Source of the DNA: a virus
Virus record (IMG/VR): IMGVR_UViG_3300027896_000093
Span: 1-41,208 of that record
DNA length: 41,208 bases
Strand: one strand, 5' to 3'
Position 1 is the stretch's first letter. Each line of letters begins with the position of its first letter. The notes beneath the pieces were generated by a model. That model did no database searches, had not been told where the DNA came from, and saw nothing but the letters and a program-made list of their open reading frames with translations. Shown here in pieces: positions 5,440 through 41,208 of the stretch. The position numbers were made by a program, and so were the translations under genes.

Positions 5440-5991
5440 ATGATAAAACGCGGATCAATTTTTATAGGGGCTCAAAAAGACGATTTTTTAAGTGGCGCAA
5501 TTAGAAAAGTATCAAGTTCTAATTGGAGTCATTGTGCTATTATAACAGATTCCACAGATTTTGAATCTTATGTATTTGGAGCTAGGGGTAGGGGAGTAGA
5601 TCTCTGTACTCTTACAGAATACGATAGTATAGATAAATATTATTATAGAATTTATGAAATAGATATGCCAGAATTTGCTATTGATAAGGTCTTAAGGGAG
5701 ACCGTTGATACTTTTTTAGAAAAGCCTTATGGTTATTTTCAACTTGCTGTTGGCTTTCCTATATGGTTTGCTCTAAAAGACTGGCTAGGTATTACATTAC
5801 CTTTTAATCCAGTAAGTTTTTGGACAGTATGTAGTGAATTAGATGCTGTATATATGAAAGCCTTATTAACTGACAGATTTCCAGAACTAAAACTTTGGAA
5901 TAAAGACTTAATCACTCCTGAGAATATTTTTCAGTTTGTCGAAAAACATCCCGAAATATTTAAAAGGGTAAAAGAGAAAAAAGCCTTGTGA
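5440..5991 (+). CDS. Permuted NlpC/P60 (YiiX/YaeF-type) papain-like cysteine peptidase
   Basis: 183 residues. The order of motifs is that of the circularly permuted NlpC/P60 families: RGSIFIG near the N-terminus, then SSNWSHCAII with the candidate catalytic His31, then WTVCSELDAVYM with the candidate nucleophile Cys131 near the C-terminus. A third polar residue, possibly Glu42 or Asp40, follows the histidine strand. Known members cleave peptidoglycan-derived peptides or act as amidases/acyltransferases. There is no signal peptide or membrane segment, so it would need a holin or virion delivery to reach the wall. The next gene's GTG start overlaps this stop (GTGA). It could be a lysin, a virion-associated wall hydrolase or an unrelated amidase; the fold call is fairly good, the substrate is open. 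Confidence 0.65.
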   Translation: MIKRGSIFIGAQKDDFLSGAIRKVSSSNWSHCAIITDSTDFESYVFGARGRGVDLCTLTEYDSIDKYYYRIYEIDMPEFAIDKVLRETVDTFLEKPYGYFQLAVGFPIWFALKDWLGITLPFNPVSFWTVCSELDAVYMKALLTDRFPELKLWNKDLITPENIFQFVEKHPEIFKRVKEKKAL

Positions 5992-7109
5992 TTTATAAGA
6001 TAGAGCACAATAATAAATTTAGTAGACAGCTAGTAGCTTGGAAGCACGCCCAACACATGAAGTCTATAGACTATGAAGAGCTTCCTAATAAAATATCTGA
6101 TAATTGTATTATTCAGGAAAAAGTGGATGGCCAATTGGTTGCTTTCAATTGGACTAAAGGCTCAGAATCGTCTTTTTCAAACACAGGCTTTGGTGTACGG
6201 AAAGAATTACCAGTACTTGATGAGATTGTGCATATATTAAAATCTCACGGATATGCACAATCAACTATAATGGGCGAGCTGACTTTTGTAAAAAAAAGAG
6301 GTGTACCCGAGCAGTTCAACCAAACGATGTCTAAAACAAGAGCCCCAGAATCAAAAGAAGATGAGGACAAAATACATTTCTTTATCTTTGAATGGTACAC
6401 AGGTAATGATAAGAAATGTATTTTGTCCTCATCTTCTTTTGATTCTGGGGTCAAAGAATTACATAAGATATTTAAAGATGCAAAGCATATTTATCCTGTA
6501 GATTATTATATAGGGAAAGATAATCTTAAAAAAGCTTGGAATGAGTTTGTAAAAGATGAAAAAAATGAGGGGATAGTCATACGTTGCCCTAATAAAATAA
6601 TAAAAAGCAAGCCGTTTTTTACTATTGACTTAGCGGTAATAGGCGTAGAAAGAGGCACAGGTGTCAACAAAAACAGAATGGGCGCTCTTAAATTAGCATA
6701 TTTCGATGGTAAACATTTTCATCTAGCTGGTCGGGTGGGTACAGGATTCTCTTTTAAAGACAGGGATGACTACTGGGCACTTGCTAAAAAACATGAAGTA
6801 AAAAAAGAAGGTAATGTAATTTGGGTAGATCCTTATAAATTTAATAAAATACTGGAAATACAATATCAGCGAGCAAAAGGTACATATAATCATACCCTTG
6901 AATTTAAAAAAGGAGAGTGGTCGGAGGGTGAAAAAGAATTTACGATTACTCTTACAATACCCTCGTTTAAAAGATTAAGAGATGATAAGACTGTGAATAA
7001 GGCTGATTTAAGAATGACACAGGTACCTATATTCAGTGAGCTTAAAAGTCAGTATAAAAAGTCGGCTTATAGAATAATTAAGGCATACTTTAAGGAATAC
7101 TGGGAGTAA
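5988..7109 (+). CDS. ATP-dependent DNA ligase, compact form
   Basis: 373 residues. It joins DNA nicks by lysyl-AMP chemistry. Motif I is EKVDGQ with Lys45 as the AMP acceptor; motif III is MGEL (Glu97); motif IV is EGIVIR (194-199); the motif V region is IKSKPFFTIDLAVIGV with Lys206/Lys208. An OB-fold follows (GALKLAYFDG, then GRVGTGF at 248-254), which is characteristic of ATP-dependent ligases. No N-terminal DNA-binding domain is present. The start is a GTG overlapping the upstream TGA. Residues 119-154 are odd: they are encoded by a 40-bp perfect inverted repeat, so one strand's KKCILSSSSFDSG is the antisense of PESKEDEDKIHF. The next gene encodes LigD-like polymerase and phosphoesterase domains, so this is probably the ligase arm of a split LigD-like system. 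Confidence 0.9.
   Translation: MIYKIEHNNKFSRQLVAWKHAQHMKSIDYEELPNKISDNCIIQEKVDGQLVAFNWTKGSESSFSNTGFGVRKELPVLDEIVHILKSHGYAQSTIMGELTFVKKRGVPEQFNQTMSKTRAPESKEDEDKIHFFIFEWYTGNDKKCILSSSSFDSGVKELHKIFKDAKHIYPVDYYIGKDNLKKAWNEFVKDEKNEGIVIRCPNKIIKSKPFFTIDLAVIGVERGTGVNKNRMGALKLAYFDGKHFHLAGRVGTGFSFKDRDDYWALAKKHEVKKEGNVIWVDPYKFNKILEIQYQRAKGTYNHTLEFKKGEWSEGEKEFTITLTIPSFKRLRDDKTVNKADLRMTQVPIFSELKSQYKKSAYRIIKAYFKEYWE
6343..6450. repeat. 40-bp perfect inverted repeat inside the ATP-ligase gene
   Basis: The left arm is 6343-6382 (starts CCCCAGAATCAAAAGAAGAT) and the right arm is 6411-6450; the right arm is the exact reverse complement of the left over 40 bases. With a one-base bulge at 6383, three more pairs form and leave a 21-base loop. 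The repeat lies wholly inside the coding frame and keeps it open. In RNA this would be a very long hairpin and a plausible RNase III substrate. It may have come from a template-switch (snap-back) replication error. An assembly artefact is the main alternative. Confidence 0.95.
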
Positions 7110-7111
7110 TT

Positions 7112-9364
7112 ATGGCGTACCCAAAGCATCCAGATACCGTTATGGTCAAAGCCGATAACTATAGCTATACCAAAAATATAACAGAATATCATATCTGGAA
7201 ATACTACGATTCTATAAAGTCAAAGCTTATACCAATATTAAAAGGATCTGATTTATTTATTGTACTAAAAACAGCTAAAGACAGTATTTATATGAGGCAT
7301 CCTTTTGACAGTAAGACTGCTTTTATTAGAATAAATAATGCAGAGCAATTTGATAAGTATAACACAGGACGTGTAGTAGAGTTTCATTTGACTAGCCCCC
7401 AAATGACAGATCTTATGGTACTCGATATGGATCCTGCCAAAAATCTTCAATGGTCAGATATAAAACAACGTACTCTACAGCTCTATGACTATCTTAATGC
7501 CAGAAAAGAATTTAAAAAAGTAGAAATATACTATACAGGCGCTAGGTCTTTTCATATATGGTGCTATTTGAAATCTAAAAAAGATATAGACTCAGTACGT
7601 AATGAGTGGAAAGAAATCCTTAAAAAAGATTTTCATGATAAGGACTACTATACTGTCGATGAGAAAAGTCCCAAGAAAAATCAACTTAATATAGACTTCT
7701 CACCAGTAAAGGTAAATGGTGGATTTGTAGCGCCCTTTTCTATCCGTGTCGATACTGGGCTAGTAAGTACTGAAGTACCTGCTAAAAAGCTATCGGCATT
7801 TAAAAAGACAGACAGTACTATAGATAAAGTATATAAGAAGACCTTAAAAAAAGAGTTTCCGTGGGATATAGAAAAAGAAAATAAAAAAGCTTTTAGATTG
7901 GTACTGGCTTATTATGGCTTAGCCACTCTTACACAACCATTAGTGTCTCGACCACCGTACGTAGGTGATCAGATCACTTATAAAACATCAAACAATAAGT
8001 ATGTTAAAGAAGAACTTGTTAAAGGCTATAGGGGCAAGTTTGTTATACAAAAACACCAAGCTACAAGTTTGCACTTTGATCTTCGATTAGAATTTCCAGT
8101 TTCATCTTTAAGAGACTCTCTTGAACCCCAAGCAAAACTTACTGGTGAAAAGAATACTGCTCCAGATAAAGCTGGTACTGTATATAGATCGTTTGCTATC
8201 CCAAAGCATAAGCTACCTACCTATCACAATAAGCTATTAGCCATGGAAACAGAAGATCATGCAATGTCATGGGGGACTTTTGAAGGTACCATAGAAGAAG
8301 GTTATGGGGCGGGTACAGTCGAGATATTTGATAAAGGTACTTTTGAGCTATTAGACGCTACTTACGATAAAAAATATATTATAGAATTTAAAGGTAAAGA
8401 CATAAAAGGTATTTTTGCTCTTATAAAGACTAGTGCTAAGACATTTTTATGGGTAAAAGTAAAAGACAAAGAAAAATACGCTTCTGTAATTGATTATCCA
8501 AGGCAAGAATTACTACCTGAGCTGTGGGAATTTATAGATGAGATACCTCATATAAAAGACATTTATAGAGATAAGATTACCCTTGATTTATATAAAAGTG
8601 CTGAAATACACTTTAAGAATCCTCAAAATTGGATAATAAGGCTTACAGTAACGGGATCTATGACTACTAATTTATACAGCGACCTGTCTGACTTGGATGT
8701 GAATGTAGAGATAGACTATGATAAATTTAGATCCAATAATCCTGATATTTCTCTATCTGATGATTATTTACTACGTAATTTTATCAGAGATAAGATTTAT
8801 CCTGACGTAAATAGCTATTTTTTAGATGACCTAAAAATTAAGTACTTTATTATTGGGGTAGGGCACTGCCTTACAAGTGACTTTAAATATGATCTTACTG
8901 ATGAAAAATGGTTAGGAGAAGCTCCAAGGCTATACCCCTTAGAGTATAATCCTGATAAAATTTTTGAAAAGGAAAAGGCTATCGCTTTACAGGCCATTAA
9001 AATATATGATATGTACATAGAGGATATAATTACAAAGTTAAAGGAGTATGAAAAGCTTACAAGTTATTTAAAGGTCTTTGATAATAAGAAATTTCATTCT
9101 TTAAAAGATACTCTTTATAAAGATTTACAAAATAACATAAATACACTCAAAAGATGGGATGACATACAGCCAAAGTTCAGGAATATGAGATATAAGCTAC
9201 CGAAAGAAAAATTAAAGTATCCTTATATTGACATTAATGAGAATTGGGAAGCTCATAATATTATCTTTAAGTACTTGGAATTCTTTGATTATTCTAACTT
9301 AATATGGCTGCTAAAAAGCCGTCTTACCGAAGAACAAAAGAAAATAGTAGAACAGCTGATTTAA
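7112..9364 (+). CDS. LigD-like primase-polymerase / 3'-phosphoesterase / nucleotidyltransferase fusion
   Basis: 750 residues with three domains. Residues about 20-260 are a LigD-type archaeo-eukaryotic primase-polymerase: VLDMDP (Asp105, Asp107), TGARSFHIW (His148), and NIDFSPV...VAPFSIRV (third acid Asp195). Residues about 305-455 are a LigD phosphoesterase: FVIQKH (His315), LHFDLRLEF (His321, Asp323, Arg325), EDHAMSWGTFEG (His383) and GYGAGTVEIFDKG. Residues about 505-640 carry TGSMTTNLYSDLSDLDVNVE, the G-S...D-x-D signature of pol-beta-type nucleotidyltransferases (Asp527, Asp529). The last 100 residues are helical. Bacterial LigD uses the first two domains to fill in and trim broken DNA ends before ligation. 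The start follows GGGAG and overlaps no gene; the ATP ligase ends two bases upstream. The third domain's substrate is unknown. Confidence 0.85.
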   Translation: MAYPKHPDTVMVKADNYSYTKNITEYHIWKYYDSIKSKLIPILKGSDLFIVLKTAKDSIYMRHPFDSKTAFIRINNAEQFDKYNTGRVVEFHLTSPQMTDLMVLDMDPAKNLQWSDIKQRTLQLYDYLNARKEFKKVEIYYTGARSFHIWCYLKSKKDIDSVRNEWKEILKKDFHDKDYYTVDEKSPKKNQLNIDFSPVKVNGGFVAPFSIRVDTGLVSTEVPAKKLSAFKKTDSTIDKVYKKTLKKEFPWDIEKENKKAFRLVLAYYGLATLTQPLVSRPPYVGDQITYKTSNNKYVKEELVKGYRGKFVIQKHQATSLHFDLRLEFPVSSLRDSLEPQAKLTGEKNTAPDKAGTVYRSFAIPKHKLPTYHNKLLAMETEDHAMSWGTFEGTIEEGYGAGTVEIFDKGTFELLDATYDKKYIIEFKGKDIKGIFALIKTSAKTFLWVKVKDKEKYASVIDYPRQELLPELWEFIDEIPHIKDIYRDKITLDLYKSAEIHFKNPQNWIIRLTVTGSMTTNLYSDLSDLDVNVEIDYDKFRSNNPDISLSDDYLLRNFIRDKIYPDVNSYFLDDLKIKYFIIGVGHCLTSDFKYDLTDEKWLGEAPRLYPLEYNPDKIFEKEKAIALQAIKIYDMYIEDIITKLKEYEKLTSYLKVFDNKKFHSLKDTLYKDLQNNINTLKRWDDIQPKFRNMRYKLPKEKLKYPYIDINENWEAHNIIFKYLEFFDYSNLIWLLKSRLTEEQKKIVEQLI

Positions 9365-39421: not shown

Positions 39422-41208
39422 TTAAAACAATCCCTTAAACAACATTTTTTGCAAGTCTTCTTCTGTGATTACTTTTGTACCATATGCTGTTGCTTTTTGA
39501 GCTTTTGAAGAACTAGAATTAGCATTTTTCATAACCAAATAGGTGAGAGTCTTGGTCACACCATTAGATATCCTGCCGCCTTTTTCTTTTATTTTGTCCT
39601 CAAGCTGGTTATTTCGAAAGCCGGTAAAACAGAACGACTGACCCGAAAATTCTCCTGAATACTTTTTTAAAGACGTATATTCTAAAATTTCTTTTATCAA
39701 ATCTTTGTTGCTTTGAATTCCTTCATAAATATAAGTAGCTAGAGTATCCTCAAAACCGTCCAGTTTTAATATATCTTCTTTTTTAATAAGCAAAAGCGCA
39801 TCTAAGTCATAGGTGTCTCCTAGAATTTCAGCTCTTTTTGTACTTAAATTTCTTATATTTAGCCCCGCCAGTAACTCTGCTATGGTAATTTCTTTCTTTT
39901 CGTGTAATTGCTTTAAAGCCCTGACAGCACTGCGCTCACCCTGTCTATCCAAAATTGATATATCTTCAGCGGTAAGCTTATAGAAGTCTGTGATTTTATT
40001 GAGTTTTCCCGCAGAATTTAATTGTTCAATTAACTTAGTGCCGAAATCTTTTATATTTAAGACATCTAGCCAATGTTCTAATGATTTCAACAGTTTGGCT
40101 TCACAATTTTCATTTTTACAATAAAGAATACTTTCTGTTTTTTCAAGTATTCCTCCACAGTCGGGACAACTCTTTGGAATTTCTATCTTTTTACAATCAT
40201 TATGCCGTATGACCTCTACTATTTTAGGTATCACGTCCTTCGATCTTACAATTTTTATATCATCATTAATATGGATTCCAAGACGCTCTATTTCATCAAA
40301 ATTATGTAAGGTAATCCTTGAAATGGTCACCCCCGCACATTCGACTGGTAGTATAAAAGCTACAGGTGTAATAGCACCTGTTCTTCCACACTGATACTTT
40401 ACGTCTAATAAAGTGCTTTCGGCAACTTTAGACTCAAATTTGTACTTTCTGGCATATTCAGGATAATAGATATCTGATGTAATTTCATCTTGTCTCTTTT
40501 TATCATTTATATTTACTACAAGGCCATCTAACTCATAATCTAGCTTATCACGTACCTCTTCTTCATATTTCTTATGCAGTGCAATAAGAGTCTGTATATT
40601 AATTTTATAAAATCTAGGAGTTTTTAGCTTTAATGTATCCTTTATATAGCCCAGCATATCGTATTCTGTATTAAAAGATACACCATATAGCTTATAAAAG
40701 AATATAGAAAGATGTTCTGCGCCTTGTCCATCGAGGCGTCTCATAAGTCCTACAGCACCGTTTCTAGGATTTTTATATTGTGGGAAGTGTGTGTTCCATG
40801 TGGAACATAAAAGCACTATTTCTCCTCTAAGATGCCCTGTAAAAGGTACTGGTAATTTTTGTGCCATACCTTGCATTTTTAAGACATTACGCGTCACATC
40901 TTCTCCAGTATCACCATCTCCACGAGTAATAGCTTTTATAAGCTGGCCTTGGTGAAAGGTAATACTTATAGACAAGCCGTCTAATTTCTCGCTAGCACAT
41001 ACTTCATTTTCTTTTGAATATTTATCAGCCCATTTATAGATATCTTCTTCTGCTTCAAATTCAATAAGAGATCCCATTGGTATTTCGTGTTTTGCCTTTT
41101 CATAGCCTAATGCTGGAGTAGCACCTACTTCTTTTAAAAAGGGATCACTGGGATACTTTTCTTTATAGACCTTTTTTAGTTGATCATATTCATCATCTGA
41201 TACAAGAG
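39422..41208 (-). CDS. ligA: NAD+-dependent DNA ligase (5' end outside window)
   Basis: The ATG at 41077 is internal: the frame stays open to 41208 and reads SDDEYDQLKKVYKEKYPSDP, then GATPALGYEKAKHEIPMGSL, the NAD-binding domain Ia motif that precedes the adenylation domain. About 595 residues are visible. Motifs in order: EKLDGLS (AMP-lysine codon at about 40985-40987), RGDGDTGEDVTRN, RGEIV, NPRNGAVG, ELDGLVV, KYKF, an OB-fold (GRTGAITPVAFILP), a C-x2-C-x12-C-x4-C zinc finger (CPDC...CKNENC), a helix-hairpin-helix block, and a C-terminal BRCT domain at about 39431-39670. It seals nicks using NAD+, in replication or recombination. Bacterial LigA is about 670 residues, so the full gene is probably a little longer than what is seen. 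The J-like gene follows after 67 bases. Confidence 0.93.
   Translation of the reverse strand, partial: LVSDDEYDQLKKVYKEKYPSDPFLKEVGATPALGYEKAKHEIPMGSLIEFEAEEDIYKWADKYSKENEVCASEKLDGLSISITFHQGQLIKAITRGDGDTGEDVTRNVLKMQGMAQKLPVPFTGHLRGEIVLLCSTWNTHFPQYKNPRNGAVGLMRRLDGQGAEHLSIFFYKLYGVSFNTEYDMLGYIKDTLKLKTPRFYKINIQTLIALHKKYEEEVRDKLDYELDGLVVNINDKKRQDEITSDIYYPEYARKYKFESKVAESTLLDVKYQCGRTGAITPVAFILPVECAGVTISRITLHNFDEIERLGIHINDDIKIVRSKDVIPKIVEVIRHNDCKKIEIPKSCPDCGGILEKTESILYCKNENCEAKLLKSLEHWLDVLNIKDFGTKLIEQLNSAGKLNKITDFYKLTAEDISILDRQGERSAVRALKQLHEKKEITIAELLAGLNIRNLSTKRAEILGDTYDLDALLLIKKEDILKLDGFEDTLATYIYEGIQSNKDLIKEILEYTSLKKYSGEFSGQSFCFTGFRNNQLEDKIKEKGGRISNGVTKTLTYLVMKNANSSSSKAQKATAYGTKVITEEDLQKMLFKGLF

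Follow-up and report, generated by a model that had tools for sequence, protein, structure and literature searches.

A 40-bp perfect inverted repeat within a phage DNA ligase gene, probably produced by a template-switch mutation

The window analyzed here, the whole 41-kb record (41,208 nucleotides), derives from an uncultivated tailed phage with Baseplate_J and minor tail genes and contains an ATP-dependent DNA ligase gene with a long perfect inverted repeat inside its coding frame (Table 1). Its baseplate protein shares 61% identity with the proteins of two IMG/VR contigs, of 193 and 69 kb (L014 and L015), and is also related to one encoded in the 485-kb genome of an uncultured phage; it is therefore probable that the window covers part of the genome of a large phage. 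This type of ligase was not found in the contigs of the two baseplate relatives L014 and L015. The open reading frame that carries the repeat encodes an ATP-dependent DNA ligase. It matches the Pfam family DNA_ligase_A_C (8e-8) and PHROG 114, ATP-dependent DNA ligase (4.7e-23), and it contains motifs I (EKVDG, with the predicted catalytic Lys45), III (GELTF), IIIa (FIFEW), IV (EGIVIR), and V (KSKP) in an architecture of a nucleotidyltransferase core and a C-terminal OB fold.

Table 1. Positions of the ligase gene and of the parts of the inverted repeat in the window
Feature	Coordinates	Strand	Description
ATP-dependent DNA ligase gene	5988..7109	+	373 aa, GTG start
Arm 1	6343..6382	+	Residues 119-132, ...PESKEDEDKIHF; probably ancestral and template of the copy
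Spacer, 28 nt	6383..6410	+	Residues 132-141, with the conserved strand of motif IIIa
Arm 2	6411..6450	+	Residues 142-155, KKCILSSSSFDSG-; probably an inverted copy of arm 1 over the original codons

The ligase gene is directly followed (stop at 7109, ATG at 7112) by a LigD-like gene (7112-9364) with a primase-polymerase domain (Pfam, 1.6e-11), a 3'-phosphoesterase domain (3.6e-19), and a weak C-terminal nucleotidyltransferase-like match. Together, the two genes resemble a LigD (end-joining) enzyme split in two and carried by a phage; none of the proteins scanned was a Ku. The same fragment also carries an NAD-dependent DNA ligase with a BRCT domain (39422-41206), whose N terminus lies beyond the end of the window. 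The ligase/LigD pair (5988-9364) lies between a peptidase-like gene, which in the window is of the C92 type, and a small gene for a putative metallopeptidase. The corresponding interval of the two closest phage relatives (L066:10447-13987 and L067:4412-7997) contains, among other genes, one that is metallophosphoesterase-like and one that is methyltransferase-like, and it appears to be a site of gene exchange.

The two arms of the repeat are reverse complements at all 40 positions. Both are read in the ligase frame, with codon position 3 paired with codon position 3 (phase 3), and they enclose motif IIIa, which is encoded by the spacer, with arm 1 before the motif and arm 2 after it. The stem is extended to a total of 43 pairs by G6408-A6409-T6410, which pair with A6384-T6385-C6386 beyond one bulged T (TATC...GAT). 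In the present sequence, TT(T)ATC/GATAA adjoins the spacer and is a candidate for a short inverted seed from which a switch could have been primed. Our recomputation reproduced the preliminary description of the repeat in its coordinates, arm lengths, 28-base gap, 43 pairs with one bulge, and encoded peptides.

A chance origin of such a repeat is excluded. Its inverted-repeat score is 40, compared to a best score of 17 in 12 first-order simulated windows under strict scoring, 19 in 20 further simulated windows under lax scoring, and 21 in 60 codon-shuffled windows. In other loci, mostly of phages, that total 600,234 bases, no perfect inverted repeat with a spacer of up to 300 exceeded 17 bp. 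We found no second copy of the repeat elsewhere in the 41-kb window and no exact match to an arm among the IMG/VR records searched, which may exclude near-identical ones, and a tandem-repeat search returned nothing relevant. The second-best inverted repeat of the window (7236-7274/7317-7355; 30 of 39 pairs, 42-nt gap) sits in the gene after the ligase, in the same codon phase as the 40-bp repeat. One of the 60 codon-shuffled windows scores equally high, and the fold has a z score of -2.1; this second repeat is possibly an older, decayed fold-back event, a hint only.

To place the arms in the context of the family, we aligned the ligase with 25 phage ligases, whose overall identity to it is only 21 to 28%. 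The column of residue 154, which is occupied by arginine in all 25 homologues, is a glycine encoded by arm 2. Counted from the motif IIIa phenylalanine, this invariant arginine lies at +20 in 20 homologues and at +21 in three, the remaining two having a shorter loop, and in those 20 a hydrophobic residue, mostly leucine, follows four residues later at +24. The window protein has exactly this spacing, with Gly154 at +20 and Leu158 at +24, so that residues were replaced and none were inserted or deleted. Moreover, residues 119 to 198 of the ligase contain no arginine at all, so that a shifted alignment cannot restore the invariant residue. Outside the repeat, the ligase also departs from the family: 9 of the 35 well-conserved columns differ, including that of the motif Ia arginine, which is present in 25 of 25 homologues and is Asn65 here (6177-6191, residues 64-68). 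Independently of the repeat, this substitution may alter ligase activity.

Of the two arms, only arm 2 has lost family residues. Arm 2 has the lowest profile fit of all 210 13-residue windows of the core (mean BLOSUM score of -1.09 against the family), a rank that, given the overlap between these windows, is worth roughly 1 in 16. Arm 1 is ordinary in this respect (+0.42, rank 97 of 210), close to the core mean of +0.57. Composition points in the same direction. The coding strands of the window are purine rich. Purines make up 40% of arm 2, which places it at the 1.6th percentile within the ligase and at the 3.8th among all coding sequences, and 60% of arm 1 (56th and 72nd percentiles); the codon score places arm 2 at the 9th percentile and arm 1 at the 46th. 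Synonymous codon choice alone fails to separate the arms (21st and 18th percentiles). With its low purine content and poor profile fit, arm 2 thus resembles antisense sequence placed in a sense frame. The best explanation, judged from distant homologues only, is that arm 1 is ancestral and that arm 2 is a derived copy that replaced the homologous codons. The opposite direction, in which arm 2 would have been the template for arm 1, was rejected because both the profile fit and the composition speak against it. Searches by peptide patterns found no close relative of the ligase in IMG/VR or in GTDB genomes, and an alignment of nine members yielded no pattern of use: one candidate with a local match of 53% (L108) is overall a T4-like ligase of the ordinary type, and a match to another (L003) was spurious.

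Template-switch mutation during replication has been described in bacteria, yeast, and primates. We consider it likely that the repeat arose in this way, through a fold-back event of the quasi-palindrome type in which arm 2 was overwritten by an inverted copy of arm 1. In such an event, with the coding strand growing rightwards, past arm 1 and then the spacer, the new 3' end (...GATAA) would have folded back onto TT(T)ATC just past arm 1, with TATC...GAT as the presumed priming seed, or would have jumped to the sister strand. Arm 1 would then have been copied as its reverse complement for about 38 to 40 nt before synthesis resumed, in register, on the original template. The outcome would be an in-frame replacement, at equal length, of approximately residues 142 to 154 by the antisense of residues 119 to 132, with the long mRNA hairpin as a by-product of the copying. 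Little luck is needed for the copied frame to remain open, as 58% of the antisense 40-mers in phase 3 are free of stop codons in this genome. If the arms evolve freely, the absence of any difference over 40 pairs puts the changes accumulated after the event at under about 0.04 per site (from exp(-80d) = 0.05), which would make it recent. The replacement itself is what the data show; the replication mechanism, the seed, and the recency are parts of this explanation that we infer. Points that count against it are the length of the copied tract, which exceeds the 16-bp arms of the yeast study, the divergence of this ligase from the family as a whole, the overlap of the profile windows, the failure of synonymous codon choice to separate the arms, and the view of the ancestral arm 2 through distant ligases only, as no close relative lacking the repeat was found. 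The preliminary description had suggested a recent snap-back or template switch and had raised the question of whether residues 142 to 154 are a replacement. Comparison with related ligases indicates that they are, since length and spacing are kept, the residues of arm 2 do not fit, and the invariant arginine is lost, and these same features support the template-switch reading.

The preserved spacing also bears on other origins of the repeat. Rickettsia palindromic elements sit in frame inside genes, and the 108-bp palindromic segment described here, also in frame within a gene, recalls such inserted selfish elements. However, the homologues have equal numbers of residues in each interval and thus show no insertion, the spacer itself encodes motif IIIa, and the segment is single copy, with no second one in the window and no exact arm match in IMG/VR, leaving this origin a next to negligible probability. 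An assembly or amplification artefact, that is, a fold-back chimera joined into the contig, would be in keeping with a source that is a single metagenomic virus record and with the chimeric by-products known from strand-displacement amplification (PMC9484634). A plain fold-back chimera, however, would run on into inverted upstream sequence, whereas here the reading frame of the ligase continues immediately beyond arm 2, at the spacing of the family, with Leu158 and motifs IV and V. An artefact would therefore need two switches with no net length error, and we regard an assembly error as an unlikely source of the repeat.

It is also conceivable that both arms are old and that their identity has been kept by repeated arm-to-arm conversion, as proposed for nematomorph mitochondria. 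The arms are indeed identical without a mismatch, and template switching is able to re-perfect stems (PMC6649704, PMC8794818). Yet the window contains just one further candidate, a weak one, for a long coding repeat above chance, the relatives lack long coding repeats, and arm 2 encodes no conserved region, unlike the nematomorph cases, so that only a very slight chance can be given to this history. A related proposal is that ongoing fold-back conversion keeps the repeat and that the repeat acts as a flip site, which could let a phage population alternate between an active and an inactive ligase. Inversion of the spacer in silico leaves the frame open and changes motif IIIa from KIHFFIFEWYTGND to KIHFLSLPVYHSKI, and spacer inversion between perfect arms is known in yeast (PMC8604942). 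We nevertheless regard such a switch as highly improbable.

The remaining alternative is that the 43-bp stem is maintained by selection, as an RNA hairpin that would hold down ligase output by slowing translation or by serving as a site of RNase III cleavage. The predicted stem is highly stable, with a folding energy of -73.3 kcal/mol for the repeat region and a z score of -13.4 against 200 shuffles; DNA parameters give the same z score of -13.4. Long perfect RNA duplexes are substrates of RNase III, which cleaves them. Cleavage of a sense-antisense duplex by this enzyme has been described (PMC7373196). On the other hand, neither the repeat nor a comparable fold is present at the matching site in any of the 25 homologues, all of them distant relatives, and the 40 pairs include neither a wobble pair nor a compensatory change. 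Phase 3 is the most restrictive codon phase, allowing on average just 1.59 amino acids at each position, and it is absent from nematomorph repeats longer than 65 bp (PMC6649704). Since pairing of third codon positions is the arrangement least able to satisfy two protein constraints at once, a selected coding hairpin becomes less likely, and it would moreover have cost the ligase its invariant arginine. We found no terminator-like site and no Rfam match. Taken together, the absence in relatives, the lack of compensatory pairs, the restrictive phase, and the lost invariant residue fit an accident better than a tuned hairpin, and we judge selection for the structure to be distinctly unlikely. The suggestion in the preliminary description that a selected RNA structure throttles the ligase thus finds no support, although a side effect of the predicted hairpin on mRNA decay or translation is possible.

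Template switching as the origin of the repeat can be compared with three sets of known cases. One is found in the coding genes of Saccharomyces, in which inverted copying homogenizes the arms of repeats within genes and in frame, leaving clustered amino acid replacements for which selection is not needed (PMC8604942). The yeast arms reported there reach 16 bp, with at most five amino acids changed, whereas the tract described here covers 40 bp and about 13 to 14 residues; in addition, the yeast events were read from sister strains and ours from distant homologues only. In microRNA and rRNA genes, a single event can likewise turn unpaired sequence into a perfect stem with a short loop (PMC8794818), here with the difference that a phage protein gene is affected. 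The palindromes in the mitochondrial protein genes of nematomorphs (PMC6649704) are similar in their perfect repeats (mean length of 43 bp) and hairpin spacing. They differ in number, with more than 100 repeats compared to the single one in our 41 kb; in phase, the longest nematomorph repeats being in phases 1 and 2; and in that both of their arms encode conserved regions, whereas arm 2 of the ligase breaks a conserved residue. A maintained palindrome of the nematomorph type was rejected for the window because arm 2 is not conserved, having lost the arginine and having the worst profile fit, and because the repeat is unique in the window.

The type of mutation proposed here is already known; what is notable is the length and cleanness of this instance and its position in a virus enzyme, beside a catalytic motif. 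If the template-switch reading is correct, the repeat would be a clean viral footprint of a polymerase that folded back on its own product and, in one step, overwrote a stretch of an enzyme near the active site. It would exemplify how 13 to 14 adjacent residues can be changed at once with length and frame intact, and that selection is not needed for a long perfect mRNA hairpin to arise. In screens for RNA structure, such a hairpin could easily be misread as a regulatory element.
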